IMG/VR virus record: IMGVR_UViG_3300031566_000065
Coordinates: 1 to 49,744 of that record
DNA: 49,744 nucleotides
Direction: 5' to 3' (one strand)
Source of the DNA: a virus
Shown here: one piece after another, positions 5,241-49,410 of the stretch
Numbering within the stretch: the first letter of the stretch is position 1
How the letters are laid out: each line of letters begins with the position of its first letter
The notes under the pieces: model-generated
What the model saw: the letters and a program-made list of their open reading frames with translations, nothing else
What the model was told of the DNA's origin: nothing
Database searches by the model: none
Translations under genes and position numbers: made by a program

Positions 5241-5285
5241 GCTGTTTTATATTTGTTTATTATTGATTTATTATTTTATTTTTAA

Positions 5286-5338
5286 ATTGTTAGTACTTTA
5301 TAGCGTACGGAAATGGACGTGCGCTCTATTTTATGTTG
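5286..5338 (-). repeat. Hairpin cassette element, copy with inverted centre
   Basis: The flanks ATTGTTAGTACTTTAT and CTATTTTATGTTG surround a 24-bp imperfect palindrome (5302-5325) containing GTACGGAAATGGACGTG. The copy at 49353-49405 has the same flanks in the same orientation, but its centre is the reverse complement of this one, with one mismatch. Confidence 0.65.
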
Positions 5339-5441
5339 TATGCAATGCCTAAAATAAAGTTGTTTAAGTTAAATTTTAGGCTGCTGTGCATTTATTAAAA
5401 AAGGCACAGCATACAACACATTATATAGGTAATGCAACGTG
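5334..5441 (-). repeat. Nested inverted repeat after the 62-aa gene
   Basis: The outer arms TGTTGTATGC (5334-5343) and GCATACAACA enclose the inner arms GCCTAAAAT and ATTTTAGGC. The adjoining segment, read on the minus strand as GCATTACCTATATAATGTG, recurs with few changes in the site at 37475-37590 (GCACATTACCTATGTACTG). The shared block marks one sub-family of the cassette sites. Confidence 0.5.
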
Positions 5442-6050: not shown

Positions 6051-6177
6051 ACTAACCTTAGCCTAAGCGTTGTGAGTAATGCCTTTTTACATTTGTGTTG
6101 TACCTTAATCTTAAACTTTGTAACTATTTAAAACTAAGGCACAACTCACAACAACGCTTCATAAAGCATACTGTTAG
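6051..6177 (-). repeat. attC-like cassette site, long arms
   Basis: On the plus strand ACTAACC is followed by AAGCGTTGTGAG, a loop of about 70 nt with its own stem (TTGTACCTTA / TAAGGCACAA), then CTCACAACAACGCTT and GTTAG. A second smaller repeat, CTAAC...GTTAG, lies at 6008-6040 region. It follows the 84-aa gene on the minus strand. Confidence 0.55.
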
Positions 6178-7690: not shown

Positions 7691-7808
7691 GTTGTGTTGC
7701 TGTTTTAATGCAACACAACGGTGGCAATAAGGCACGTTTGGCTATTCATAACTTGTCAAATTATTACCGAACTTTGCAGCCAAATGGGCTTTATTGCGTG
7801 TTATCGGC
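7691..7808 (+). repeat. attC-like cassette site, plus orientation
   Basis: A first hairpin GTTGTGTTGC / GCAACACAAC (7691-7719) is followed by ACAACGGTGGCAATAAGGC ... GCTTTATTGCGTGTTATCGG. The AAC box at 7717-7719 and GTT box at 7800-7802 bracket arms GGCAATAA / TTATTGC plus an inner AGCCAAA pair. The ends match the site at 8250-8335. Confidence 0.6.
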
Positions 7809-7850
7809 TGCCTTTTATTATTAAATTTTAAAATTTTAAATAATTACAAA

Positions 7851-8240
7851 ATGAAAATTGAAAATTCAAAAATTACAATGTCAATCAATCCTGAATATAC
7901 AGAGATTGAAATAACCGATTCTGATTCTAATACAGCTATTGCAAAAGTAAAATTAACACCTGAACAATTATCAGCAATTTTATCAAGACAAGGATATGTA
8001 AATTGTGAATGTTCAACAGGAGATTTGACAAGAGTTGGGAAAAAGCACGAAAACAAGTATTTTGAGTTTGAAATAACTTATTCAAAAACTAAAGAAGATT
8101 TATCACTTGCTTGTAATGAGGCATTATTCCAACAAAATATGCACGAATGGGTATCAGATAATTACTATCAATCTCAAAATTCTTTCTTTTCAAAAGATGG
8201 TAAGGATTATGCCCGTACTGTTATTCGTAGGTGGGTTTAA
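7851..8240 (+). CDS. Hypothetical protein, 129 aa (plus-strand cassette gene)
   Basis: ATG at 7851 (MKIENSKITMSINPEYTEIE) is preferred over a TTG at 7794 because the latter lies inside the hairpin site and the ATG has an A-rich leader. The protein is beta-strand rich at the N-terminus. Function unknown. Confidence 0.6.
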   Translation: MKIENSKITMSINPEYTEIEITDSDSNTAIAKVKLTPEQLSAILSRQGYVNCECSTGDLTRVGKKHENKYFEFEITYSKTKEDLSLACNEALFQQNMHEWVSDNYYQSQNSFFSKDGKDYARTVIRRWV

Positions 8241-8249
8241 GGTTGCCGA

Positions 8250-8335
8250 TAACGTTGGCAATATGAAACGGTTGCCTAGTAAGACGTTTCAAATTTACTA
8301 ACAGCCTATCGGCAACCGTTTCATATTGCGTGTTA
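8250..8335 (+). repeat. attC-like cassette site with perfect 19-bp arms
   Basis: The arms GCAATATGAAACGGTTGCC (8258-8276) and GGCAACCGTTTCATATTGC (8311-8329) are fully complementary. A TAAC box lies at 8250-8253 and TGTTATG at 8331-8337, with unequal unpaired spacers (GTTG and GT) between box and arm. This is the layout of R and L boxes in a folded integron attC site. It begins 10 nt after the stop of the 129-aa gene. Confidence 0.65.
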
Positions 8336-8425
8336 TGTATTTGGCGCATTATTAAGCACTTAGTTTGCTACGAAGTAAGGTAATTTTATTATTTTTTTAG
8401 GGTGGGTTATTTTTCTTTAAAATTA

Positions 8426-8457
8426 TTTGTTTGTTACGAAACTATTACGTAACTTTG
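8426..8457 (+). promoter_or_regulatory. Plus-strand promoter with CGTAAC inverted repeat
   Basis: TTTG (8426-8429), a 20-bp spacer and TAACTTTG (8450-8457) match the Bacteroidota consensus. GTTACG and CGTAAC form an inverted repeat across the spacer, and TTACGTAA is a palindrome, suggesting an operator for the RHH-like product of this operon. Confidence 0.6.
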
Positions 8458-8482
8458 ACGTAAATAAATTAAATATAATGCT

Positions 8483-8920
8483 ATGAAAAATATTTATGAA
8501 AAAGCAATAGAAATGTTGAAGCCTGAGTATTTAAAATGCACAGGTATTGACAATGTTGAAAGAGAGTTAAAGCTTTCACTTGGGAATTATAGAATAAAAT
8601 TTGAAGGTTTTGAATTTGTATTTAATGAATCTGGGGATGGATATGAAAGATTTATTAAGATAATGAAAAAAGATATTGGATTTACTTTTAAAGTAATGAA
8701 AAATGACCCCGAAGATTTAAACAGAATGCAATATGTATACGATGTTACAGTTGCAGCAAAAAACGAACAGTTGTTATTGCCATTTGCTAAAAAAGTAATG
8801 CCCGACTGGAAGAAAATTGATAAGAAATTTCCGGGTAAAGTTTCAAAAATCGAATACGATTCTTTAAATATTCACGATAAAAATGCAGTTGTAAACTTAT
8901 TAAATACATTGACTGCATGA
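8483..8920 (+). CDS. Hypothetical protein, 145 aa
   Basis: Starts MKNIYEKAIEMLKPEYLKC; mixed alpha/beta, no recognised motif. It shares a promoter with, and overlaps (ATGA) the small RHH-like gene, an arrangement seen in toxin-antitoxin or autoregulated pairs. No toxin fold is recognisable, so this stays an idea. Confidence 0.6.
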   Translation: MKNIYEKAIEMLKPEYLKCTGIDNVERELKLSLGNYRIKFEGFEFVFNESGDGYERFIKIMKKDIGFTFKVMKNDPEDLNRMQYVYDVTVAAKNEQLLLPFAKKVMPDWKKIDKKFPGKVSKIEYDSLNIHDKNAVVNLLNTLTA

Positions 8921-9087
8921 AAACAATTGAAAAGGTAGAACTTGCCGACCAAGAACATGCAGATTATTTAAAAGCATGCAAAGAACTTAACCGAAGTATG
9001 AGAGGTCAAACATCTCAACTTATTCGTGAATTTTTAAAGCGGGTTGGCAAAAAAAATAATAAAATTACTCCTACTGAACCTGATTAG
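8917..9087 (+). CDS. Ribbon-helix-helix-like small protein, 56 aa
   Basis: KVELADQEHADYLKACKELN then RSMRGQTSQLIREFLKRV fits a strand followed by two helices of the Arc/CopG class, with a disordered tail NKITPTEPD. The start overlaps the stop of the 145-aa gene by 4 bp. It could repress the 8426 promoter through the CGTAAC repeat. Confidence 0.5.
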   Translation: MKTIEKVELADQEHADYLKACKELNRSMRGQTSQLIREFLKRVGKKNNKITPTEPD

Positions 9088-9090
9088 AAG

Positions 9091-9160
9091 TACGGCATTG
9101 CGCTTGTACATAACACCGATATATATGTAACGTCCGTTTTCGGACAGTGCTAAGTAATTA
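9091..9160 (+). repeat. Hairpin cassette element, plus orientation
   Basis: Contains ATATATGTAACGTCCG, loop TTTT, CGGACAGTGCTAAGTAATTA. On the minus strand the same block recurs at 33040-33095 (TATATGTAACGTCCG), 37475-37505 and 39601-39636 (CGGACAGTGCTAAGTAATTA). The hairpin GTCCG-TTTT-CGGAC is perfect. Confidence 0.6.
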
Positions 9161-9210
9161 ATTTTTAAACAAATAGCTTATGAATTAAAAAGCAGCGGGA
9201 ACAGTAAACT

Positions 9211-28992: not shown

Positions 28993-29870
28993 GATGTATA
29001 TGTTATAGTTGAGCTTAACAGAAAAGAAGGATCAGCTTTCATATATCCGGCAATCGAGCTGTATGATTGAGAAGTGGTTAATAATATGTCTGTATACGCT
29101 CCTCCGTTAGGTTTTGCTTCTACTGCTGTAGCTACTGCATTAATAACCCCTGTTGCTGCTGCAATTGCCGATGTGAGCTTCATTACCTGCATTGTTCCGT
29201 TAAAGTTTTCTGTTTGAAATGTTTGCAAAAAATTATTAACTGCATCCTCTACAGGCTTTGTTGCTCCATCGCTTATTAGCGTTCCTGTATTATCTAATAA
29301 TTCAGGATCATATGTAATAGTATAATACAATTTAATCAAATCTGGATTGTCAGACTTAAAAATAATAGGAGTGCCTGCAAATCGTTTAGATTTCCAGTAA
29401 TCCTCGAAAGTAGATAATTCAGTAGCCGATAACGGCTCAGCCACTCCGCTTGTAATTTTTGCAACCTTTATCGTAATTAGTCCGCCGGCTTCATCTGCTG
29501 CCGCTAGCTCAATAATCCTTTTATCTAGGTCAATTACGGGATAAACTATCGACTTCCCTTTTAATGTTATTAATATGCCGTTTTCATCTGTGTAAGTATT
29601 TCTAAAAACTAATTGATCTCCATACTGAAAATTTAAGCTTTCAGCCGCATACCATTTTAAAACCCCTGTAGGGATTTCCAACTTCCTTTCCTCTACATCG
29701 CTTCTTAATACGTCATATAAGTCTTCAATTACTTTTATTGCTACAGCACATATATAAAAAATCAAATTCCAAAACGCTGCCGAACTCGTAGATGTAACTC
29801 CTGATAGCCCAGCCTCTGCATTTTTCTGATCTATCATTGATTGCTTTATTTGCGCTATAGTTCTAGCCAT
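28989..29870 (-). CDS. Baseplate J-like protein
   Basis: 293 aa. The N-terminus MARTIAQIKQSMIDQKNAEA, the middle DYWKSKRFAGTPIIFKSDNP and VEDAVNNFLQTFQ fit the baseplate J family, which links wedge and hub. It overlaps the portal by 8 bp and the I-like gene by 4 bp. It is located far from the other baseplate genes (15974-17812). Confidence 0.7.
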   Translation of the reverse strand: MARTIAQIKQSMIDQKNAEAGLSGVTSTSSAAFWNLIFYICAVAIKVIEDLYDVLRSDVEERKLEIPTGVLKWYAAESLNFQYGDQLVFRNTYTDENGILITLKGKSIVYPVIDLDKRIIELAAADEAGGLITIKVAKITSGVAEPLSATELSTFEDYWKSKRFAGTPIIFKSDNPDLIKLYYTITYDPELLDNTGTLISDGATKPVEDAVNNFLQTFQTENFNGTMQVMKLTSAIAAATGVINAVATAVEAKPNGGAYTDILLTTSQSYSSIAGYMKADPSFLLSSTITYTS

Positions 29871-31167
29871 TTATTTTCTTTTTATACAAGTTTGCAACTT
29901 CATTCATTATTGATCCAATTTTATTATCAGGAATATTGATTTGATTTTCTTCAACTTCGTACCCTGTCTTTTTTCTTACTTCTTCTGAGGTAATAGCGTA
30001 TCCAGCTCTCTTTAATTTTTCTATATTGTCAACATGATTATTAATAGTTATCTGCTCTGAAAAATCCCATTGACAAAATATTTTTTTAGACGAAGATATA
30101 ATACCTACCTTTTTCATTCGTGGTATTAATTCTTTGTTTATTACTGTTGATATATCTAGTTTATCTGAATATATAAGGTCTTCGAATACTCCTTTATGTA
30201 CATCTGCTGATCCTGAGTATGATTTCTCATCTGTAGTCCCTGTTTGAGATAACACTATTTTACTGATTGCTTTATCGCATTTTTCGATAAGCATACCGTA
30301 AATATTATGAGGATCACCACCTCCTTTTTGTTCAATTATATTTATCTCATCCTGAAAATCGCCTATTATGTATGCCGCACCAGTTTGCGCCTCAAAAGAA
30401 TCTATTAAATTCTGTCTTCTGCCATTATCTCTTAAATCTGTTTTAGCAACTCTTAAAGGCATGCCAAACCTATCTGCGTGTTCAGACCATGATCCAAATA
30501 CAGACTTGTAAATAATGTAAGGGGCACATTTATTAATTATTCCTAAGTCAATCCTGCTCCCAACGCCTATAATCCATTTATTATAAGCAGGATCATCTAT
30601 ATCAATAGCATTTGAACCCCCTCTCATAAACGCAAGCCTTGAATCTAATAATATACTGTGATAATATGGTATTAAATTTTCTTCGGGGAATTTTTCAACA
30701 AAGTCATATGTTTTATTAACTATATCTCCTAATTGAATAACTTCGTAGCCGTAAAATTTAGATAACATTACGATACGCATAAAATCCCTAAACCAAGGTA
30801 GCGGATGCCCTTTAGGGTCTATAAATTTACCCATCTCTTCCTCGTCCTCGTCTCCTGATTCGTCCATTATCTTGAATGATCCAGTAATTGCTTTATTTAT
30901 TCTTGACTGCATAGCGGAAAATAATTGATAGTCATCAATAAAATCCTTATACATTTTCATTAATTCTTCTCGGTCTGGGTTGTCGATATCCTCGGCATTC
31001 TCAACGGCTGATCTCCATTCTCCTATATCCTTAGAAATGCGCTCTAATATTTCAGGACGTAATAATTTTAATACATTAGAGCTTTTTGTATTTTCTGTAG
31101 ATATATTTTTAAATTTATCTAATCCAGCGTTTATTCTTTTGTTTATATAGTCGTTTAATAATCCCAT
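29863..31167 (-). CDS. Portal protein (DUF935, Mu gp29-like)
   Basis: 434 aa. IGVGSRIDLGIINKCAPYII, WSEHADRFGMPLRVAKTDLR, DEINIIEQKGGGD and KAISKIVLSQTGTTDEKSYS are DUF935 signatures. The dodecameric portal forms the DNA entry vertex. The gene precedes the J-like gene and follows the DUF1320-like gene. Confidence 0.85.
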   Translation of the reverse strand: MGLLNDYINKRINAGLDKFKNISTENTKSSNVLKLLRPEILERISKDIGEWRSAVENAEDIDNPDREELMKMYKDFIDDYQLFSAMQSRINKAITGSFKIMDESGDEDEEEMGKFIDPKGHPLPWFRDFMRIVMLSKFYGYEVIQLGDIVNKTYDFVEKFPEENLIPYYHSILLDSRLAFMRGGSNAIDIDDPAYNKWIIGVGSRIDLGIINKCAPYIIYKSVFGSWSEHADRFGMPLRVAKTDLRDNGRRQNLIDSFEAQTGAAYIIGDFQDEINIIEQKGGGDPHNIYGMLIEKCDKAISKIVLSQTGTTDEKSYSGSADVHKGVFEDLIYSDKLDISTVINKELIPRMKKVGIISSSKKIFCQWDFSEQITINNHVDNIEKLKRAGYAITSEEVRKKTGYEVEENQINIPDNKIGSIMNEVANLYKKKING

Positions 31168-33026: not shown

Positions 33027-33039
33027 TTTTTAATATTTA

Positions 33040-33104
33040 ATTGAATTTTAATTACTTATAACGTACGAAATCGGACGTTACATATACCCACATGTTGTAC
33101 ACAA
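33040..33104 (-). repeat. Hairpin cassette element
   Basis: TAACGTACG-AAAT-CGGACGTTA (33059-33080) is a palindrome with one mismatch. On the minus strand it reads TATATGTAACGTCCGATTTC then GTACGTTATAAGTAATTA, the same element as at 9091-9160. It follows the 102-aa gene's stop. Confidence 0.6.
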
Positions 33105-33413
33105 TTAAAGGCTATTGTGTATTCTATGCATCTGTACTGCTTGGTCGCCTTTTCCTGCAACTGCCAACATATTCGCCATTTTAAAAACAATAGCCTTAAA
33201 CTGTTCGCTTTGCTGTACAACATCAGGTATAGTTAATTGCCTATCTCCCGTATCAGCTTTTTGGCTATCGCACAGTTCGGTTACAAATTCACCCACCTTT
33301 TTTATTTGAAATTTAAGTTGTGTTTTTGCGTGTCCTACATTTCCAGATGTCAGCCTATCAATTCTATTAATTAAATCAACTATATTTATATCAATTCGTT
33401 CTTTTAAATCCAT
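33105..33413 (-). CDS. Hypothetical protein, 102 aa
   Basis: A helical protein (MDLKERIDINIVDLINRIDR; FKAIVFKMANMLAVAGKGDQ). Its stop is followed by a hairpin element, and its start overlaps the 66-aa gene by 10 bp. Function unknown. Confidence 0.6.
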   Translation of the reverse strand: MDLKERIDINIVDLINRIDRLTSGNVGHAKTQLKFQIKKVGEFVTELCDSQKADTGDRQLTIPDVVQQSEQFKAIVFKMANMLAVAGKGDQAVQMHRIHNSL

Positions 33414-37089: not shown

Positions 37090-37461
37090 CTATTTTTTAA
37101 GTTGATTAAGCGTTTCTGTTGTTACAATTATTTTTGTCGGCGCATTTTCAATAGCTTTTTTAAGTGCTTGTAATAATTCCTTTTTACTTTTGCATAAATG
37201 TTCTATTGCTTTATAAGGCGTTAATCCTCTAACCATTGATTCAAAAATACTTCTAAATTCGGCATCGTATTGAAACTCCTCAAAAAATTCCTCTGTAAAT
37301 TTTGATTTTAATACGAATTGATCTGTAATATTTTGCTGGCTGTCCAAATAAAAATCAACCATAAAGCATTTTAAAGAATGTATTGTAATGTTTGTTCCTG
37401 TTCCAAATCCTGCATTGGATATGTACTTTTCTGCTTTTTCGTTTAATTCGCTTCTATTCAT
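37090..37461 (-). CDS. Hypothetical protein, 123 aa
   Basis: A helical, acidic protein (TEEFFEEFQYDAEFRSIFES) with an N-terminal MNRSELNEKAEKYISNAGFG. No family recognised. It stands next to a hairpin cassette element at its 5' side. Confidence 0.6.
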   Translation of the reverse strand: MNRSELNEKAEKYISNAGFGTGTNITIHSLKCFMVDFYLDSQQNITDQFVLKSKFTEEFFEEFQYDAEFRSIFESMVRGLTPYKAIEHLCKSKKELLQALKKAIENAPTKIIVTTETLNQLKK

Positions 37462-37474
37462 AATACTTTATTTT

Positions 37475-37590
37475 TATGTCCGGTTTCGGACGTTACATAT
37501 ATTTATTTGTTGTGCTTCATTAAAACGCCACTTCGTTAAGCACAACACAGTACATAGGTAATGTGCTTGCTTTTCAAATGGGCGTTAGTG
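37475..37590 (-). repeat. attC-like cassette site with GTCCG hairpin
   Basis: Minus-strand order: ACTAACGCC, then AAGCAAGCACA, loop TTACCTATGTACTG, TGTTGTGCTT, then GGCGTTTTA. AACGCC and GGCGTT pair, as do AAGCACA and TGTGCTT. This is an R-L...L-R order like attC. A second hairpin GTCCG-GTTT-CGGAC lies at 37478-37491. Confidence 0.6.
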
Positions 37591-37962
37591 CTATTTTGGA
37601 GGAGTAAAATTAATTTTCCTTCCCACCGCACGTTCATATTCGTCAACTAATCTTTGTTTAACTTCCTTAGTTAAGTATCTGCAAGGTTTCTCACCTTTAA
37701 TAACCTCCAATCCATGCACACTGCTATCATACGCCGTGTAGTTTCGCATTCCGTGGCTTATATCCGCTTTTGTAAACGGCATCCATCTACCGAAGTGGTG
37801 TTCTACGTGGCATTTTTTACCATTTCTTTTCCTGTAGGTGTCTTGTTGGTTTACAAAAGCTTTCATTGTGCTAAAATTAACGTCAAACACTTTGTATTTA
37901 CTGTCAATCTTCACGGCTTCCATTTCTGCCAAATATTGTTTTGTTCTATAATTAAATTGCAT
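37591..37962 (-). CDS. Hypothetical protein, 123 aa (cassette gene)
   Basis: His/Arg/Lys-rich (RKRNGKKCHVEHHFGRWMPF), with an alpha-helical C-terminus (KEVKQRLVDEYERAVGRKIN). A nucleic-acid or phosphate ligand is possible from charge alone; no family recognised. Confidence 0.6.
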   Translation of the reverse strand: MQFNYRTKQYLAEMEAVKIDSKYKVFDVNFSTMKAFVNQQDTYRKRNGKKCHVEHHFGRWMPFTKADISHGMRNYTAYDSSVHGLEVIKGEKPCRYLTKEVKQRLVDEYERAVGRKINFTPPK

Positions 37963-37989
37963 GCGCTAAAAAATTAATTTTACTTGATC

Positions 37990-38047
37990 TTCGTAGGTAG
38001 CTTAGTAGGTTATCGAAAAAGCACACTACCCATGTACTAATTCGTTA
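37990..38047 (-). repeat. attC-like cassette site, decayed right end
   Basis: Minus-strand TATAACG (the TAA is the stop codon of the zinc-ribbon gene) is followed by AATTAGTA ... TACTAAG and GGTAG ... CTACC pairs. The GTT end is not clear. Confidence 0.4.
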
Positions 38048-38302
38048 TAGTTCAGTTTGCCATTTTTCAGAACACGACATGCATACAAATGTTCCGTTCG
38101 GTGTCATTACCCAGTTGCGTTTTTTGCATTTAGGGCAAACCGAAACAATAACACCATTCGCTTGCAGTCGTTCTTTAATCCAATCTTCTGCATCTTTATG
38201 TAAATCTGATTCAGGGTGCATTACGTATTTGCAAAATTCTCTAATTTCATTGGCTGCAAATTCCTCTTTTGTCGTTTCCTTTTTCTCGTTTAAGTCGCTC
38301 AT
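38045..38302 (-). CDS. Zinc-ribbon phage protein, 85 aa
   Basis: CPKCKKRNWV and CMSCSEKW form a C-x2-C ... C-x2-C zinc ribbon at residues about 56-80. The first half is helical and acidic. A DNA or RNA binding role is plausible. The stop codon forms part of the AAC box of the hairpin site. Confidence 0.65.
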   Translation of the reverse strand: MSDLNEKKETTKEEFAANEIREFCKYVMHPESDLHKDAEDWIKERLQANGVIVSVCPKCKKRNWVMTPNGTFVCMSCSEKWQTEL

Positions 38303-38331
38303 TATTTCTGTATTTTAAGTTTTGTAATCCG

Positions 38332-38386
38332 TTTCAACTTTAGTGCTATTTGGTAAAGCGGTCAGCACTTACAACCATACGTTATA
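38332..38386 (-). repeat. attC-like cassette site
   Basis: Minus-strand TATAACGTATGG, then AGTGCT (arm), 16-nt loop, AGCACT (arm), AAA, GTTGAAACGG. The arm AGCACTAAAGTTGAAAC resembles GCACGAAAGTTAATT at 5729-5786. Confidence 0.55.
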
Positions 38387-38393
38387 CTGAAGT

Positions 38394-38687
38394 TTAGCAG
38401 AGCATTGAGTTTAACTTCTCATTTAATTCTTGTAATTTTTCTTTTACCAACTCAATTAAACCGTTACGTATTTGATTAGGCACTTCAATTTCTTGTATAT
38501 GAGTACCAATTCCAAAAAACCTACTACCAAAAGGCGATATTTTAACATCAACTTTTTTTGTCATTAAAACATTAGTCGATGGTATCGCCATTGATTTTTC
38601 ATCAAACGTCACAACGATTGATAAGAAATGTTCTAATTTCCTAATTTCTTCTTGCAAATAATTTGCTTTTTCTAATTTCTCATTCAT
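38394..38687 (-). CDS. Hypothetical protein, 97 aa (cassette gene)
   Basis: Helical ends (MNEKLEKANYLQEEIRKLEH; LIELVKEKLQELNEKLNSML) flank a beta-rich middle (VTFDEKSMAIPSTNVLMTKK). No family recognised. It ends 7 nt before the AAC box of the site downstream. Confidence 0.6.
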   Translation of the reverse strand: MNEKLEKANYLQEEIRKLEHFLSIVVTFDEKSMAIPSTNVLMTKKVDVKISPFGSRFFGIGTHIQEIEVPNQIRNGLIELVKEKLQELNEKLNSMLC

Positions 38688-38760
38688 AAAATATCTATTA
38701 AATTAATTATTAAAAAACCGACCGTTTTAACAGGTTAAAAATTAAAAACATATCATCATT

Positions 38761-39237
38761 TCAATAAACCAAATTAACCAAAACTTTACCACTAACACTT
38801 TTAAATTCTGGATCAGTTTCAGTTGAAGCTAATATTACATAACTTCCAGACATGCTTACTTTTATGTTGTAAGGTATCGATCCATTTTTAGATTCTAATT
38901 CAAGTATAATGCAGTCTATTTTATAGGTTGTTTCTATTCTGAAAATGTATTCTTTTTGATCAATCATATTCCAGTTATCAACTTGCTCCTTTATCATACA
39001 CATGTTTTTATACTGATCTATTTCACAGCTCGAGAGTATTAATATAAGCATTAAGAATTTGCTCAACACGTTTATTGCGTGTTTAATTTTACATACCTCG
39101 TGAAATGCGTGTGCCTTTTCTTGTTGAGGCGTTTTAAAAGAAACTGCATGTTTTAACAAAAGCTTTTTTTGCTCTTCTATTTCTTTTTTGATTTCTTCTT
39201 TTGAAATCTTTTTTTCAAAAATATGTTTTAGTTTCAT
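38761..39237 (-). CDS. Protein with internal lipobox, 158 aa
   Basis: Residues 1-55 are a charged, soluble segment (KISKEEIKKEIEEQKKLLLK). Residues 57-71 read NVLSKFLMLILILSSC, a lipoprotein-like hydrophobic stretch ending at a lipobox Cys. The rest is beta-rich. It looks as if a cytoplasmic N-terminus had been joined to a lipoprotein; an internal start near M63 is another reading. Confidence 0.5.
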   Translation of the reverse strand: MKLKHIFEKKISKEEIKKEIEEQKKLLLKHAVSFKTPQQEKAHAFHEVCKIKHAINVLSKFLMLILILSSCEIDQYKNMCMIKEQVDNWNMIDQKEYIFRIETTYKIDCIILELESKNGSIPYNIKVSMSGSYVILASTETDPEFKSVSGKVLVNLVY

Positions 39238-39241
39238 ATAT

Positions 39242-39469
39242 TTATACTTTTAATTCAAACAATTGACCAGTACAATTATTACACATCTTGTCGTACTCTC
39301 TTGAAAAATATTTACACTTCCGACAATCGTATAACGATGCACTACATTCTAAAGCTTCTTCAATAGCATCCAAGCAACTCATATATGCTGCAACATGCAT
39401 ATTTTTAGGTGTTATATTCTTTTTAGCAAGATGTTTTTTAAGGAGCTTTTCGGCTTTCGATTCTTTCAT
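39242..39469 (-). CDS. Cysteine-rich (zinc-ribbon-like) protein, 75 aa
   Basis: CRKCKYF and CNNCTG at residues about 49-68 suggest a C-x2-C ... C-x2-C zinc site. The N-terminus is basic and helical. It follows the 33-aa membrane peptide gene by 4 nt. Confidence 0.6.
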   Translation of the reverse strand: MKESKAEKLLKKHLAKKNITPKNMHVAAYMSCLDAIEEALECSASLYDCRKCKYFSREYDKMCNNCTGQLFELKV

Positions 39470-39473
39470 TGTC

Positions 39474-39575
39474 TTAAATTTTAATTATTAGCTCAAAAGC
39501 TAATACTATTCCGTACATTAACGCTGTAAGGAGTATTGCTTTGATTATGTAAATTATGTATTTTCTTACTGTCAT
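39474..39575 (-). CDS. Small membrane peptide, 33 aa
   Basis: MTVRKYIIYIIKAILLTALM then YGIVLAFELIIKI is one transmembrane helix with a basic N-terminus. It lies at close spacing (4 nt) to the zinc protein gene and follows the cassette element, so it is likely translated. Function unknown. Confidence 0.45.
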   Translation of the reverse strand: MTVRKYIIYIIKAILLTALMYGIVLAFELIIKI

Positions 39576-39604
39576 TATGCTTGGTTATTAGTTTAAAAAT
39601 TAAT

Positions 39605-39650
39605 TACTTAGCACTGTCCGATAACGGACGTGCGCTCTATTTTATGTTAG
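39605..39650 (-). repeat. Hairpin cassette element
   Basis: Minus-strand GCTAACATAAAATAGAGCGC then ACGTCCG-TTAT-CGGACAGTGCT and AAGTAATTA. Its left half matches the elements at 5286 and 49353, its right half the one at 9091, so it appears a hybrid. The TAA of GCTAAC is the stop codon of the 93-aa gene. Confidence 0.6.
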
Positions 39651-39928
39651 CAACCATTGAGTGCAAGTAATACACAAAGCCCACCCACGGCAAAACCTAT
39701 CATTAAATTAAATACTTTCCAGTTTATGTAGCCGCCATCAACTTTATTCATCTGTTCAATTACCTTTTGCATTTCAAACCAAATATGGCTGTATGCTTGT
39801 TGTTTCCCTGCCTGTAGCAAATACCCCTCGCACTTTTTCTCAGGGTTCTTGTTCGCTTCTTCTTTAATAGAATCAACGGTTGCTAACAAGCGGTCATAAC
39901 CAATTTTGTTTATCTCTTTTTGTTTCAT
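39647..39928 (-). CDS. C-terminal membrane protein, 93 aa (cassette gene)
   Basis: A soluble helical N-part (NKIGYDRLLATVDSIKEEAN) and a C-terminal transmembrane helix (NLMIGFAVGGLCVLLALNGC). Its stop codon lies in the AAC box. No family recognised. Confidence 0.6.
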   Translation of the reverse strand: MKQKEINKIGYDRLLATVDSIKEEANKNPEKKCEGYLLQAGKQQAYSHIWFEMQKVIEQMNKVDGGYINWKVFNLMIGFAVGGLCVLLALNGC

Positions 39929-39957
39929 TGTACTATATTTTAAGTGTTTTGCATTTA

Positions 39958-40014
39958 AGTTACTTTCGTGCGGTATTCAGCAACAAAACTGATCATACCG
40001 CATCTACGTTAGCG
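39958..40014 (-). repeat. attC-like cassette site
   Basis: Minus-strand CGCTAACGTAGA, then TGCGGTAT, an 18-nt loop, ATACCGCA, CGAAAGTAACTTAAATG. The arms pair perfectly over 8 bp. The R' box reads GTAAC instead of GTT, so it may be mutated. Confidence 0.55.
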
Positions 40015-40020
40015 TCCATG

Positions 40021-40245
40021 CTAAAGAAACCGATAAACATCATGTGCCGTTTTCCCTCTTTTTACTAAACCATCTTCAATTAGGTTTTCTAAAGTCCTTG
40101 AAGCAGTAAAGTAGCCAGTTGAACACTTTCTTTGTATTAGCGATATTGAAATATCATCGCCACTTTTGAACATTCCAAATACCTTAGTTCTTGTTTCAAT
40201 ATCTGATTTGAATTGTTCTGCTGTTAAATTTGATTTTGTTTTCAT
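40021..40245 (-). CDS. FtsK-gamma-like winged-helix protein, 74 aa (cassette gene)
   Basis: Residues 34-62 (ISISLIQRKCSTGYFTASRT then LENLIEDGLVKR) resemble the DNA-recognition winged helix of FtsK/SpoIIIE gamma domains (SxLQRxFxIGYNRAxRLIExLE). No motor domain is present. Start M at 40245 (MKTKSNLTAEQF) is chosen, as the longer frame reads back into the site region. It might bind chromosome-polarity sequences. Confidence 0.55.
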   Translation of the reverse strand: MKTKSNLTAEQFKSDIETRTKVFGMFKSGDDISISLIQRKCSTGYFTASRTLENLIEDGLVKRGKTAHDVYRFL

Positions 40246-40287
40246 TTTATAATTAAGTTTTAAATTTCTAAAATAAAGCACGAAACG

Positions 40288-40380
40288 CTAACAAATGCTA
40301 TATGCAACACGGCAAAAAAGCACTTGTGTAACTTGATAAATTCTACTATGCCGTGCAGCACATAGCAAAACCGTTATAGC
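40288..40380 (-). repeat. attC-like cassette site, long arms
   Basis: Minus-strand GGCTATAACGGTTT, then TGCTATGTGCTGCACGGCA (40349-40367), a 34-nt loop, TGCCGTGTTGCATATAGCA (40296-40314), TTT, GTTAGCG. The arms match at 16 of 19 positions. The unequal spacers and mismatches in the arm are the layout of an attC fold. Confidence 0.65.
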
Positions 40381-40383
40381 CAA

Positions 40384-40680
40384 TTATAATATGGCATCGT
40401 AGCTATTAATAAAAATATCTGGTTTGCATGGGTAATGATGAACCCCGTCAGGTTCTGTGATAATCCAATCACCTTCGATAACTTTTGTTTCTTGATTATG
40501 GATAGTAATAACTCTGCCAAACCATGCTGAAATATATCTTGTTTCTGGGTTATACGACCCACTTGTCATCATCAATCCATTTGGATAATTTTGACCATCG
40601 AATAAAATTGACTCTAAAAGTTCTCTAGTTATTTGGTAAGCCTCAATTTCAACTGGTTTTTTTCTAAATTTTTGTATCAT
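40384..40680 (-). CDS. Conserved phage protein of PGDYG-like family, 98 aa
   Basis: Starts MIQKFRKKPVEIEAYQITRE and has GDWIITEPDGVHHYPCKPDI. This combination recurs in a large set of phage proteins of unknown function ('KFRKKPV...GDYI...YPCKPDIF'). A small beta barrel is likely. It lies next to the ASCH-like gene. Confidence 0.7.
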   Translation of the reverse strand: MIQKFRKKPVEIEAYQITRELLESILFDGQNYPNGLMMTSGSYNPETRYISAWFGRVITIHNQETKVIEGDWIITEPDGVHHYPCKPDIFINSYDAIL

Positions 40681-40708
40681 TTTAATTAGTAATTAAGTGA
40701 ATAAAAGG

Positions 40709-40803
40709 CTATAACAATTTATAAAAATAATAGCGCGTATAGCCTTTACGCTTTTATTTATCGGTTGTGGTTGCGCTACTATTCTTACAAGTAGCCGTTA
40801 GCA
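40709..40803 (-). repeat. attC-like cassette site, AATARTAGC family
   Basis: Minus-strand TGCTAACGGC, then AATAGTAGCGC ... GCGCTATTATT (10 of 11 paired), TTTATAAATT, GTTATAGCC. The site at 43206-43333 shares AATAGTAGCC / GGCTATTATT and the spacer TTTATTTATT. Confidence 0.6.
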
Positions 40804-40809
40804 AACAGC

Positions 40810-41352
40810 TTAATAGCGGTAGTGCGTAAAATGAATAATTGCCATTGGCTTTTCGCTTCGTACTTTGAACCAGTCACAAAAATTATCAAATGAAAGTCCA
40901 TCGTTTTTAGCGATTTCTTCCCAATTAATCATCTTTCCATTTACAGGAGCAAACACAAAATTTGTTGGGTCTTCTAATTTCTGTATTCCTATTTCTTCAA
41001 GTTTATAAAGTTCAACTTGTTTTGAACGATAAGGCATCCCGCTCCAATAACGAATAGAAAGAATTGCTTTTCCTTCATTTATTTGCTTTGCTCTTTTTTC
41101 CCATAACTCATAATTCGACCTAATTGTATGTATTTTAGGATTTTTAAAATCACAATCATTACAGTCACCGGGGCAGAAAACTCCGCAAGCTATTTTTTCA
41201 GTAAAATAAGTTTGGTCTCCTGCTCGTTTATGTTTTTTAGGAAAATATCTTGATACGGTTAAAACATAGGTCTTAACAAAAGCCGATTTGCTAACACTCG
41301 CTATATTTAATGCGGGTTTTGTAGTAGTTTGTAAGGTTGTATCTTCGTTCAT
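40810..41352 (-). CDS. ASCH/PUA-like phage protein, 180 aa (cassette gene)
   Basis: SAFVKTYVLTVSRYFPKKHK, KIHTIRSNYELWEKRAKQIN and LSIRYWSGMPYRSKQ match a conserved phage family with an ASCH-like core (HTIR, then strand-rich), and CGVFCPGDCNDCDF adds cysteines. ASCH/PUA folds bind nucleic acid or nucleotides; the role in phages is unknown. Confidence 0.65.
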   Translation of the reverse strand: MNEDTTLQTTTKPALNIASVSKSAFVKTYVLTVSRYFPKKHKRAGDQTYFTEKIACGVFCPGDCNDCDFKNPKIHTIRSNYELWEKRAKQINEGKAILSIRYWSGMPYRSKQVELYKLEEIGIQKLEDPTNFVFAPVNGKMINWEEIAKNDGLSFDNFCDWFKVRSEKPMAIIHFTHYRY

Positions 41353-41375
41353 AATTTTATGTATTTTGATAAATT

Positions 41376-41418
41376 TGTACTCGTAAATCCCGCACTAAAA
41401 CATAGCGGAAACGTTAGT
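41376..41418 (-). repeat. attC-like cassette site (short)
   Basis: Minus-strand AACTAACGTTTCCGC, then TATGTTTTAGT and GCGGGATTTACG, with CCGC / GCGG pairing and a TTTACGAGTACAAATTTAT end. The TAA of ACTAAC is the stop codon of the 126-aa gene. Confidence 0.45.
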
Positions 41419-41794
41419 TGCAAGGCTGAACAATCCATCGTTCATCAAATTTAAACCATACACCTCCGCATCTAATTTGTTTATTGTTCAAATCTAAAGT
41501 CGCTGTATCTCCAACTTTGCAATATCTCTCAGTTATCGGAGTTTGCAAAACTGTAACAAGCCCAGCAACTAACAACGTGTCATACCCCATTGGGGTTGCA
41601 ACGCTTTTTTGATTGTTTTGTAAGTCATTCATCTTTATTGCTTTTAATTCAAGTTCTTTTTGATATAATTTTTGTTTTAGTATCAAAATGTTTTTCATGT
41701 TAAAAATTCTATTTTCAACACTTTCATTAGCCATAAAAATAGACTCTAAATCATAAATTCTATTTCTAATTTGCAATGGAGTTAAATCCTTCAT
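41414..41794 (-). CDS. Hypothetical protein, 126 aa (cassette gene)
   Basis: The N-half is a coiled coil (LTPLQIRNRIYDLESIFMAN) and the C-half a small beta domain (ITERYCKVGDTATLDLNNKQ; VWFKFDERWIVQPCN). No family recognised. The stop codon is in the AAC box of the site downstream. Confidence 0.6.
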   Translation of the reverse strand: MKDLTPLQIRNRIYDLESIFMANESVENRIFNMKNILILKQKLYQKELELKAIKMNDLQNNQKSVATPMGYDTLLVAGLVTVLQTPITERYCKVGDTATLDLNNKQIRCGGVWFKFDERWIVQPCN

Positions 41795-41820
41795 GATGTT
41801 TAGTTGTTAGTTTTACTGCC

Positions 41821-41841
41821 AAAACCTCCTTTGATCGGAGG
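41821..41841 (-). terminator. Possible terminator hairpin CCTCC/GGAGG
   Basis: CCTCC (41825-41829) and GGAGG (41837-41841) form a 5-bp stem, followed on the minus strand by TTTTGG. It lies in the 69-bp gap between two minus-strand genes. Confidence 0.45.
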
Positions 41842-41863
41842 CATAGCAAGGTTTATTGAATTA

Positions 41864-42103
41864 TTACCAATTTATTAACGAATCATCATCCCCACAAGAC
41901 TCACAAATAGCAACAATAACTATTTCTTTACCTGCTTCAAAATATGCTTTCATTCCGTGCGTTTGCCCGCATTCGCACCTTGTTTCGCAATCTTCAATGT
42001 AAGTTTCGTTATTCAAATTATCTTCATTGGCATTTTCGGTTAACCAACTTTGTAATATTTCGATTGCTTTTTCTGTTGTTTTTACTGTTGCTAACGTTTT
42101 CAT
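41864..42103 (-). CDS. Zinc-binding phage protein, 79 aa
   Basis: CRCECGQTHGM is not a perfect ribbon, but CECGxTHG and CESCGDDDS suggest a zinc site; the N-terminus is helical (VKTTEKAIEILQSWLTENAN). Related small proteins occur in many Bacteroidota phages. It has its own promoter at 42151-42180. Confidence 0.55.
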   Translation of the reverse strand: MKTLATVKTTEKAIEILQSWLTENANEDNLNNETYIEDCETRCECGQTHGMKAYFEAGKEIVIVAICESCGDDDSLINW

Positions 42104-42150
42104 GATTTCTAGTTTTTAAAATTCGAGCAACATCGCTCACATTTCTTATA

Positions 42151-42180
42151 CAAATATACAATTAATATTTGAATTTGCAA
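42151..42180 (-). promoter_or_regulatory. Promoter upstream of the 79-aa gene
   Basis: Minus-strand ATTG, a 19-bp spacer and TATATTTG (42151-42158). The spacer GCAAATTCAAATATTAATTG resembles that of the packaging promoter at 36858-36889, so the two may be co-regulated. Confidence 0.5.
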
Positions 42181-42188
42181 TACTTTTA

Positions 42189-42377
42189 TTATTTATTTTC
42201 ATATTTAAGATACTTTTTTTTCAAATCCCTTATAAACTCACGGATTTTAGTCACTTCATTTAACGGGACCCGATCCGAAAAAGATACAAATTTCTCTGTA
42301 TATACCGGTTTAGTTCCTGCATTTTCCCGCTTGCCTCCTGAGTTTTTCGGAGTACCGTCTTTTTTTAATTTTGGCAT
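42189..42377 (-). CDS. Small basic phage protein, 62 aa
   Basis: MPKLKKDGTPKNSGGKRENA then GTKPVYTEKFVSFSDRVPLN. This basic start recurs in a set of phage proteins of unknown function. The basic, Gly-rich start might bind nucleic acid. It is preceded by a hairpin site and its own leader. Confidence 0.55.
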   Translation of the reverse strand: MPKLKKDGTPKNSGGKRENAGTKPVYTEKFVSFSDRVPLNEVTKIREFIRDLKKKYLKYENK

Positions 42378-42407
42378 TTTATTATTTTGTTAGTTGATTA
42401 TTAATAA

Positions 42408-42450
42408 TTTAGAACCGTACGATTTCGTACGTTCTCTCTATTTCATGTTA
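42408..42450 (-). repeat. Hairpin cassette element, GTACG type
   Basis: AGAACCGTACG-ATTT-CGTACGTTCT (42411-42435) is nearly a perfect palindrome, then CTCTATTTCATGTTAGG. The right side matches CTATTTTATGTTAG at 39631-39650. The stop codon of the 132-aa gene is in GCCTAACAT. Confidence 0.6.
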
Positions 42451-42846
42451 GGCGTAATTGCGAAATAGCGCTTCTGCATCTTTGTAAGTTGGTTGCATAG
42501 CTGGGAGTAATTCTTTCCATCTGCCACGCCACAAAAAGCCCAATCTGCGTATTTCTGCTGTGTACCACCATTCACCACCCGAATTGCTGACACATATTCG
42601 TTTTTCATATAGCTTTTTGTTATCTAAACGCAACGTACGCCTAACAATATCTATAGGTAATGTGTTTTTGCTCGCATCAACATTTTTGCCCTCACACACT
42701 AAACTATAAGCTCTCATTAGTTCTTGGTAGTCATCTTCACTTATTACCCTACAATCAACTCTTGGAAACTTCTGAAAATCACCTAATCTTAATTTGTTGC
42801 TTCCTGCTTTTATTAGTTCAGGTTCTATAAATTTTTTTGCCATCAC
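42448..42846 (-). CDS. Hypothetical protein, 132 aa (cassette gene)
   Basis: MMAKKFIEPELIKAGSNKLR, with a Trp-rich segment GGEWWYTAEIRRLGFLWRGR. No family recognised. Its stop codon is part of the AAC box of the following element. Confidence 0.6.
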   Translation of the reverse strand: MMAKKFIEPELIKAGSNKLRLGDFQKFPRVDCRVISEDDYQELMRAYSLVCEGKNVDASKNTLPIDIVRRTLRLDNKKLYEKRICVSNSGGEWWYTAEIRRLGFLWRGRWKELLPAMQPTYKDAEALFRNYA

Positions 42847-42870
42847 ACTCGTATTTTAAAGTTTATATTT

Positions 42871-42928
42871 ACGTTCAAATTTTGTGCGTAATTTCGGGAA
42901 CACACTACCCATAGATTTACCGTTAGGG
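42871..42928 (-). repeat. attC-like cassette site
   Basis: Minus-strand CCCTAACGGTAAATC, then GTGTG, a loop, CGCAC, AAAATTTGAACG. The end CGCACAAAATTTGAACG resembles GCACTAAAGTTGAAAC at 38332-38349. Pairing in the arms is short. Confidence 0.5.
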
Positions 42929-42932
42929 TGCA

Positions 42933-43193
42933 TTAATCCCTACGCTCATTTAACCAATCATCAGCGATAATAATTGTTTTTTTATTATCATTTACCCAGT
43001 AATTATAACAATTACTACATTTTTCTATTTCAATCCAGTGAGTTTCATTGTCTCTAAAAAAATCAATTTTATCTTTTAACTGTATCGCTAAGTCATTTTT
43101 ATCATTGTAATCTAAAAACATCAAATCTTGCCAACCCTCAGAATTTAGTAACTCTTCGAATCTTTTTAATTTACCAAAGAACCTTTTTTCCAT
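42933..43193 (-). CDS. Hypothetical protein, 86 aa (cassette gene)
   Basis: The start MEKRFFGKLKRFEELL at 43193 is chosen over a GTG upstream that lies in the GTT box of the site. It has CSNCYNYW and a C-terminal KTIIIADDWLNERRD. No family recognised. Confidence 0.6.
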   Translation of the reverse strand: MEKRFFGKLKRFEELLNSEGWQDLMFLDYNDKNDLAIQLKDKIDFFRDNETHWIEIEKCSNCYNYWVNDNKKTIIIADDWLNERRD

Positions 43194-43205
43194 AAAATAA
43201 CGCAC

Positions 43206-43333
43206 CCTAACAATAAATAAAAATAATAGCCTGCTAAGGTGCTTTGTATTAAGCTATTATTAGGTTTGTAATATTTGTATTTCAATCTAAATTTGTGCTG
43301 TAAATCGGCTACTATTCTTATACCAACGTTATA
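43206..43333 (-). repeat. attC-like cassette site, AATARTAGC family
   Basis: Minus-strand TATAACGTTGGTATAAG, then AATAGTAGCC (43307-43316), a long loop, GGCTATTATT (43222-43231), TTTATTTATT, GTTAGGG. This is the same family as 40709-40803. It contains a spurious 65-aa frame. Confidence 0.6.
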
Positions 43334-43340
43334 AACAAGG

Positions 43341-43685
43341 CTAACCCTGCACATTCCCAACAATCAAGTTTATCAATCCTTTTACCTTCTCAATTGTCAA
43401 ATATCCATCATAATCATAATTGTGTAGGCAAATAAGGTCTGTAATATTGCTCTCGTCTTGGTCATCAGTTTCACAGACCCAAAGTATTTCGTTTGGCGTG
43501 CCTACACAACCCACGCTTAGTTGTCTATGTCGTCCTAGCTTGTATATAAGAGTATTGGTTACTGTAAAGTGCGGTATCTTTTCAAACCCCACGCTCAACA
43601 AATCACCCTCACAAAGCCAAGTGTATAACAACGCATCATACGCTATTGGCTTGCTGTTATTTGTAGTCTCATTCTCTTTATTCAT
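43341..43685 (-). CDS. Hypothetical protein, 114 aa (cassette gene)
   Basis: IAYDALLYTWLCEGDLLSVG then LGRHRQLSVGCVGTPNEILW. Mixed alpha/beta, no family recognised. It has a leader (TACAAAACTTTAAAATACAG) like that of the gene at 38302. Confidence 0.6.
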   Translation of the reverse strand: MNKENETTNNSKPIAYDALLYTWLCEGDLLSVGFEKIPHFTVTNTLIYKLGRHRQLSVGCVGTPNEILWVCETDDQDESNITDLICLHNYDYDGYLTIEKVKGLINLIVGNVQG

Positions 43686-43710
43686 TTTATCTGTATTTTA
43701 AAGTTTTGTA

Positions 43711-43750
43711 ATTCTAATTAAAAGCCAACAGTAGCATATACCAACGTTAA
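43711..43750 (-). repeat. Partial attC-like site before the replication module
   Basis: Minus-strand CTTAACGTTGGTATATGC then TACTGTTGGC. The start TTAACGTTGGTATA matches the site at 43206-43333 (TATAACGTTGGTATA), but the second half is missing. It marks the last cassette before the replication genes. Confidence 0.4.
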
Positions 43751-49330: not shown

Positions 49331-49345
49331 TGTTTTTTATTTTAT

Positions 49346-49410
49346 TTTTAAATTGTTAGTACTTTATAGCGCACGTCTATTTCCGTACGCTCTATTTTAT
49401 GTTATACACA
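49346..49410 (-). repeat. Hairpin cassette element, copy with centre inverted against 5286-5338
   Basis: Flanks ATTGTTAGTACTTTAT and CTATTTTATGTTA, identical in orientation to 5286-5338. The 24-bp centre (49368-49391) is the reverse complement of that at 5302-5325, with one mismatch. It follows the methylase stop. Confidence 0.65.

Follow-up and report, generated by a model that had tools for sequence, protein, structure and literature searches.

Integrons are regarded as bacterial devices. The window analysed here, the whole 49,744-nucleotide stretch of a viral record (IMG/VR IMGVR_UViG_3300031566_000065), carries two blocks of small genes with hairpin sites between them, and the question that it raises is whether one mechanism filled both blocks, as a sequence-only reading had proposed, and what that mechanism is. 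Judged from the sequence, both blocks are very probably integron-like cassette arrays, with a layout that is the reverse of a classical integron's, in the genome of a contractile-tailed phage. The host of this phage is probably a member of the Bacteroidota.

Cassettes and array ends of the two blocks

Block 2 was observed to hold a minus-strand row of small genes at 37.45-43.75 kb (16 ORFs of at least 62 aa) with hairpin sites of one design between them, as had been described, and the two sites given as examples (40293-40372 and 40716-40796) are real hairpins. The row itself is genuine; it is not a single block, and block 2 (37452-43748) divides into three sub-arrays of integron-like cassettes, with a GTCCG element closing each of them. 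These elements were found where GTCCG hairpins had been noticed (37452-37511 and 39589-39648) and also at 42390-42449, and they are array ends, not a sub-family of sites between cassettes. Each looks like an insertion point, with AAC|ATAAAATAGAG as the candidate junction. A cassette starts with GTTNNNNNN(N) and ends with its reverse complement NNNNNNNAAC, and hairpin 'bodies' join the cassettes. Eight such GTT..AAC core pairs, with 8-10 perfect bases, were found at cassette ends in block 2; the scan also returned chance pairs elsewhere, and these eight count because they coincide with gene ends.

All features of block 2 lie on the minus strand. At the upstream end of the array (43328-43748) an AAC is present at 43746-43748, and the body holds the start of ORF 43341-43685; the cassette here comprises an in-ORF core GTTATA (43629), the gene and the end TATAAC (43328), with a core match of 6 bases only. 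Next to it are an attC-like hairpin body (43212-43327, arms AATAGTAGCC and GGCTATTATT), whose site type is also found in Cellulophaga phage phi19:3, and a core-paired cassette (42922-43211, GTTAGGGTGC to GCACCCTAAC, gene 42933-43193), whose ends border other genes in many viral contigs. ORF 42448-42846 begins in a long body (42646-42921, arms ATCTATGGGTAGTGTGTT and AACACATTACCTATAGAT), which holds its N-terminal part, and its C-terminal part is in the core-paired cassette at 42447-42645 (GTTAGGCGTA to TACGCCTAAC); the attI-like element at 42390-42449 closes this sub-array.

The second sub-array contains a core-paired cassette with the C-terminal part of ORF 41414-41794 (41413-41573, GTTAGTTGC to GCAACTAAC), a body with the ATG of ORF 40810-41352 (41296-41412, MNEDTTLQTTTKPALNIAS) and a further core-paired cassette (40797-41295, GTTAGCAAA to TTTGCTAAC); the match of this ORF to phrog_8581 begins only at residue 27. 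The hairpin body at 40716-40796 shares with that at 43212-43327 the AATARTAGC arms noticed earlier. It is followed by a core-paired cassette (40373-40715, GTTATAGCC to GGCTATAAC, gene 40384-40680), a hairpin body (40293-40372) with a relative in the 462-kb phage LR756500, and another core-paired cassette (40008-40292, GTTAGCGT to ACGCTAAC), whose gene (40021-40281) encodes a winged-helix-like product matching FtsK gamma at 27.2 bits, under the cut-off of 30.6. A body with the start of ORF 39647-39928 (39888-40007, MKQKEINKIGYDRLL), a core-paired cassette (39646-39887, GTTAGCAACC to GGTTGCTAAC) and the attI-like element at 39589-39648 complete it. In the third sub-array, a long body (37547-38043, arms AGTACATGGGTAGTGTGCTT and AAGCACATTACCTATGTACT) has gene 37591-37962 in its loop, and similar bodies occur in the related loci L019 and L033; it is followed by a core-paired mini cassette with no gene (37509-37546, GTTGTGCTT to AAGCACAAC) and the attI-like element at 37452-37511.

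The GCACnAAAGTTGAA motifs, previously taken for a kind of site end, fit exactly only at the 38332 copy and sit inside long bodies, the second arm lying further on and often within the next ORF. A separate family of 'short' sites, which we had considered, was given up once the second arm and the core of these sites proved to lie within the ORF that comes next. Clear cassette ends were not seen at genes 42189-42377, 41864-42103, 39242-39469 and 38761-39237, and the genes at 38045, 38394 and 43341 have no clear core pair, so that parts of the arrays are decayed or misread. Searches of the block 2 proteins against Pfam gave no family over its cut-off, Rfam and tRNA scans of the window gave no matches, and known phages searched by DNA with each block gave short matches only.

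A covariance model based solely on the three block 2 array ends detected both array ends of block 1, at 9112-9172 on the plus strand (E 1.2e-6) and at 5271-5337 on the minus strand (E 0.0015), and two new array ends as well. An identical stretch of 23 nt is shared by 5315-5337 and 39626-39648 (expectation from shuffles, 0). The plus strand of block 1 carries a cassette (7800-8253, GTTATCGGC to GCCGATAAC, gene 7851-8240), a hairpin body with a 19-bp perfect stem (8254-8331) and a second cassette (8332-9114, GTTATGTA to TACATAAC, genes 8483-9087), and its minus strand carries two mini cassettes (5335-5417, GTTGTATGC to GCATACAAC; 6069-6152, GTTGTGAGT to ACTCACAAC). Terminal inverted repeats are of one kind in the two blocks. 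A profile made from block 2 alone finds the ends of block 1, so that the outcome named beforehand as refuting the proposal of one mechanism did not occur, and the shared kind of repeat supports the proposal independently. The mechanism supported by our analysis, which the sequence-only reading had missed, is site-specific recombination of an integron-like kind in which the polarity of the genes is inverted. The comparison of gene content that it had suggested gave no homologues of block 2 genes beside the replicative helicase of relatives: none of those found via DnaB has them, and at this place L005 has an array site and other genes.

Of 30 block genes, 7 had ends of their own that paired over at least 8 bases, whereas the 870 mispaired combinations gave 17 such pairings (p 5e-6 by Fisher's test); the script used shortened some cores. 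A single-gene permutation test on block 2 only was weak (p 0.04) because cores inside ORFs were not then allowed for. Among 3858 ORFs of related loci there were 57 matches of 9 bases and 73 of 10, compared with 2.4 and 1.6 in mispaired controls. The pairing has a fixed break at position 11 and resumes at positions 12-14, and the repeat sequence is private to each cassette, not family-wide. Across the core, the frame of the gene stayed open in 235 of 433 cassettes, and the other frames in 117 and 113. Many bodies appear to provide the gene that follows with its start codon, and translation would run from this codon through a short N-terminal peptide and the core into the gene of the cassette.

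Polarity, integrase and cassette gain or loss

When homologous cassettes of related phages were compared, the upstream hairpin stayed with the gene in 15 pairs, some of them not independent, and the reverse was seen in 0; both bodies were kept in 62 other pairs and neither in 31. The loci for this test were found through the integrase, an earlier set having been biased by the search pattern. The gene strand was the better-folding strand in 134 of 155 bodies (p 3e-22) and in 1 of 8 of the canonical control; among the window bodies alone it was more stable in 5 of 7, which is not uniform. As the coding strand folds better, the genes point toward attI. After these polarity tests we gave up our reading in which the sites were standard attC, placed on the gene strand. 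The arrays have attC hairpins with complementary cores, longer than canonical, a G/TT start and one better-folding strand; they do not have the integron order of a gene followed by its own attC at the 3' end.

In about 80 viral loci such arrays are followed by a XerA/IntI-like recombinase of ~268 aa without the IntI insert, preceded by a conserved TAAC|TAYTATATATAAA. Around the integrase of 81 loci, 127 cassettes lay upstream on the same strand, 2 downstream and 8 on the other strand, and AAC with a TATAT motif was immediately ahead of the integrase in 69 of 77. An attI beside the integrase, where cassettes enter, is present in the relatives, as judged from this motif and from the Freya variation described below, and absent from the window contig, in which no integrase or tyrosine recombinase was found. 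Core-paired cassettes number eight in block 2 and four in block 1; a CALIN needs two or more attC sites with no integrase close by, and the contig is CALIN-like in this sense. The GTCCG elements resemble the integrase-linked attI in position and A/T-richness only.

Against TIGR02249, the integrases of the relatives scored 96-151 bits (cut-off 265; two true IntI controls 394 and 509), and the alignment confirmed that the IntI insert is absent, which sets them apart from an integron IntI. Five array integrases scored 146-189 bits against NF040815 (XerA, the best NCBIfam model), under the curated cut-off of 220. In a tree made by a quick method the contig integrases were separate from two IntI and two Xer proteins, the branching and the place of Leef being unsure. 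A pattern search of limited reach in bacterial genomes returned one clear array-type match, on a short contig of a Bacteroidales MAG (L210), and a distant one (L211); plasmid homologues (Chryseobacterium, Persicobacter and a tet(X3) plasmid) had no convincing array.

These results bear on the view that the blocks hold ordinary cassettes of a bacterial integron, a CALIN in the usual sense, in which each gene has its own attC behind it and owes its transfer to a classical IntI. GTTA.. core ends, hairpins and the cassette signature are common to integrons, phage CALINs are known, and Polaribacter phage P12002L, which carries cassettes of the window kind, has a site that IntI1 recombined in an assay (PMC9892861). 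It is contradicted by the polarity tests, as the body moves with the downstream gene and the strand bias runs counter to that of a canonical array; the cores pair over 9-10 bases, not mostly 7, and the associated integrases have no IntI insert and score under the IntI cut-off. We regard this view as unlikely.

The gain and loss of cassettes could be followed in cultivated phages. All 43,978 bases of Polaribacter phage Freya_1 match Freya_10 at 100%, and what Freya_1 lacks is a segment of 4,942 bases that lies in Freya_10 exactly between ..ACAAC| and |ACCCCTATAAC ahead of the integrase; this AAC/attI junction is also where Freya_2 and Freya_6 differ. The junctions are base-exact at AAC and have almost no homology in their flanks, and target bases were not seen to be duplicated. 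It could be argued that the hairpins are terminators or regulatory elements, which intergenic hairpins can be, in blocks that vary by ordinary homologous or illegitimate recombination, given that phage genomes are mosaic and small early genes often variable. This is very improbable, since it leaves unexplained the cassette-specific complementarity of a gene's end to its own beginning, the base-exact junctions and the recombinase at the array end. Successive insertion of MITE-like elements, to which the 9-10 bp terminal inverted repeats might point, is the least credible, as family-wide repeats and, at the Freya junctions, target duplications are both absent, and variation in the arrays is confined to a fixed end, next to a tyrosine recombinase.

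We therefore return to integron-like arrays of inverted polarity. A cassette consists of a hairpin body, GTTNNNNNN(N), the gene and NNNNNNNAAC, in that order. A XerA/IntI-type tyrosine recombinase would recognise the folded single-stranded hairpin together with the terminal inverted repeat, and would join the AAC ends of cassettes to one another or to an insertion site, namely the T/A-rich attI beside the integrase gene in relatives and the putative GTCCG sites in the window phage. The coding strand is the better-folding 'bottom' strand, with the genes facing attI. Since the window contig has no integrase, its arrays may be served in trans by the host or a co-infecting phage.

Comparison with known systems

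On balance we favour the view that these arrays form a separate, virus-borne class of integron in Bacteroidota phages, with its own XerA-like integrase, a TATATA attI and inverted cassettes. The sites would also act as modules for starting translation, and a captured gene would on insertion be fused to an N-terminus encoded by the site. Transfer of cassettes and sites would take place between phages of ~40 kb and >400 kb, and phages without an integrase, such as that of the window, would keep several insertion points served in trans. If true, the reversed cassettes are a second solution to expressing captured genes, a site can bring its own start signal, and viruses have a route to trade small genes such as those for DNA methyltransferases. 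Since Freya and Leef phages are in cultivation, gain and loss can be tested directly, and the finding of conserved cassette ends on unrelated genes is relevant to the origin of cassettes.

We found no account in the literature of an inverted, phage-encoded integron class, and complete integrons are reported to be rare in Bacteroidetes (PMC9024848). Qi et al. 2023 reported phage CALINs, including that of P12002L, with mixed site direction and with no dedicated integrase, attI or inverted polarity described (PMC9892861); like these, the window is from a phage of virulent type in which attC-like sites are clustered and an integrase is absent. The array integrase resembles XerA recombinases (NF040815) in size and domain layout, but differs in its sub-threshold score and its location beside cassette arrays. 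As in class 1 and chromosomal integrons, small promoterless genes are arrayed with a cassette-specific inverted core (GTT../..AAC), the sites are imperfect hairpins with one better-folding strand, a tyrosine recombinase lies beside attI, and changes occur at the attI end. Unlike in integrons, the genes run opposite to the site orientation and the hairpin is 5' of its own gene; the cores pair over 9-10 bases and, after the break, over 3-4 more; the integrase, without the IntI insert, is co-directional with the cassettes and lies behind the array; and the sites often carry a start codon.

Cassettes of the phage and their ends

The window spans an entire virus record of 49,744 bases, which encodes a tail sheath, tape measure, portal, terminase and DnaB, and the phage is of the contractile-tailed type. 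Since its short DNA matches to known phages are with Cellulophaga phages and uncultured huge phages, its host is likely to belong to the Bacteroidota. The sequence-only reading had described about ten small genes separated by sites of one design in block 2, and this largely held: the minus strand of the block (37452-43748) carries 16 small ORFs, most of them lacking a known domain. A promoter-like sequence of the TATATTTG type, judged by eye, lies between two sub-arrays at 42104-42188, 5' of the gene 41864-42103.

Read in the direction of the gene, the sequence at the gene end closes with NNNNNNNAAC and is reverse-complementary to a GTTNNNNNNN located before or within the start of the same gene. 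Complementary ends of this kind are what a cassette able to circularise should have. The cores in block 2 are GTTAGGGTGC, GTTAGGCGTA, GTTAGTTGC, GTTAGCAAA, GTTATAGCC, GTTAGCGT and GTTAGCAACC, together with GTTGTGCTT in a gene-less mini cassette of 38 nt; the other array region, block 1, has cores GTTATCGGC and GTTATGTA and two mini cassettes. Among 3858 ORFs of related loci, own-core matches of 9 bases numbered 57 against 2.4 in mispaired controls, and those of 10 bases 73 against 1.6. In 440 unique cassettes, chosen for at least 9 paired bases, core pairing was observed to break at position 11 (G.T in 64%), to return at positions 12-14 (76-80%) and to be lost by position 16.

Polarity and the intervening bodies

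Each body is a hairpin spanning the AAC of one cassette to the GTT of the next. When homologous cassettes in differing contexts were compared, only the upstream body was kept in 15 pairs and only the downstream body in 0 (both in 62, neither in 31). Of 155 unique bodies, 134 folded better as the gene strand than as the complementary strand (Wilcoxon p 3e-22), as against 1/8 in the canonical control. A G comes next after the gene's AAC in 297/440 cassettes, and TT or GT mostly precede GTT in the same set; these flanking bases mirror the AACAA..CGTT of canonical integrons. Upstream-body retention, the folding bias and the mirrored flanks together indicate that the genes run antisense to attC sites as classically oriented.

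At several sites of the window, the other arm of the body lies 64-450 nt off, within or past the following start codon. In ORFs 42448-42846, 40810-41352 and 39647-39928 the ATG comes from such a body, as does an N-terminal peptide whose frame continues across the core, and the phrog_8581 alignment of the 40810-41352 product begins only at residue 27. Unrelated proteins begin with MIELPQKPTLPIHGV or near variants, derived from one body family. The core and its preceding 45 nt were open in the gene frame in 235 of 433 cassettes (117 and 113 in the other frames). We infer that translation begins at body-borne start codons. The common N-terminus of that family, about 15 residues (MI[EK]..PTLPIHGV), occurs on unrelated proteins including DNA methyltransferase-like ones, at the related loci L008, L011, L013, L014, L021, L023, L025, L028, L031 and L034.

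Array ends, integrases and natural variation

The GTCCG elements (37452-37511, 39589-39648 and 42390-42449, all minus strand) stand immediately after the final AAC of each sub-array, and hold the position that attI has in integrase-bearing phages. A model built from these three recovered both block 1 ends (5271-5337, minus strand; 9112-9172, plus strand), which supports the earlier proposal that one mechanism filled both blocks. The model also detected two minus-strand elements outside both blocks, at 33037-33096 (E 4.6e-5) and 49337-49403 (E 0.0017). The former is preceded by a possible cassette with core GTTGTACA, within ORF 33105-33413. No tyrosine recombinase was found on the window contig, and its arrays would therefore rely either on an integrase provided in trans or on genome sequence missing from the record.

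Searching for the integrase yielded 144 viral loci, and 80 were retained; cassette positions were counted in 81 loci (79 viral, 2 from genomes). Signature cassettes, those with the cassette-end signature, lay upstream of the integrase on the same strand in 127 cases, downstream in 2 and on the opposite strand in 8. TAAC followed by TAYTATATATAAA, or a near variant, was present immediately 5' of the integrase in 69/77. In 3/40 array-bearing records the integron integrase model matched strongly, though in separate pieces; the integrase of ~268 aa lies directly behind a signature cassette in two of these records and behind a gene-less mini cassette in the third (L116). On the Acinetobacter plasmid pJAT2044 (L215), a tyrosine recombinase adjoining tet(X3) is ~49% identical to the array integrases; no convincing array was found near it.

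Polaribacter phage Freya isolates all come from a single host strain and measure between 44.0 and 48.9 kb (PMC8776804); that paper mentions an integrase, and the words 'integron' and 'cassette' do not occur in its text. Freya_1 and Freya_10 are 100% identical across all 43,978 Freya_1 bases, and the 4,942 bases absent from Freya_1 are bounded exactly by TTTACAAC and ACCCCTATAACAAC, at a junction 46 nt upstream of the integrase start where Freya_2 and Freya_6 carry different cassettes. The length difference would reflect either gain or loss of these bases. Freya_1, 10, 6 and 2 (L223, L224, L225, L226) are near-identical, and their cassette content varies just 5' of the integrase. In Leef_1 the integrase is likewise directly preceded by cassettes. 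The Freya isolates are cultivated material and can be used for tests.

Relation to known integrons

Phage CALINs, P12002L among them, have already been reported, and IntI1 recombined a P12002L site (PMC9892861). We found that P12002L carries core-paired cassettes of the same kind as those of the window; the site directions reported for this phage are mixed, which may be a consequence of inverted polarity. In this Polaribacter phage (L035) the cassettes lie at 29237-30011 and 30952-31120, around the methyltransferase region, and the site precedes the gene on its 5' side. Huge phages share cassettes and sites, namely the 462-kb phage LR756500 (L002) and a 429-kb viral contig (L107) that seems to represent almost the same stretch as L002.

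In the open-access literature searched, no description of inverted cassettes together with a phage integrase was found, a negative which is no proof of the novelty of this class. The canonical integron array of a Shewanella prophage has own-cassette matches that are mostly 7 bases long. The array integrases share the N-terminal domain family PF13495 with IntI, but score under the integron integrase cut-off and are without the IntI insert. On sequence comparison, the window system would be a variant of the integron kind, new as far as the open-access literature shows.
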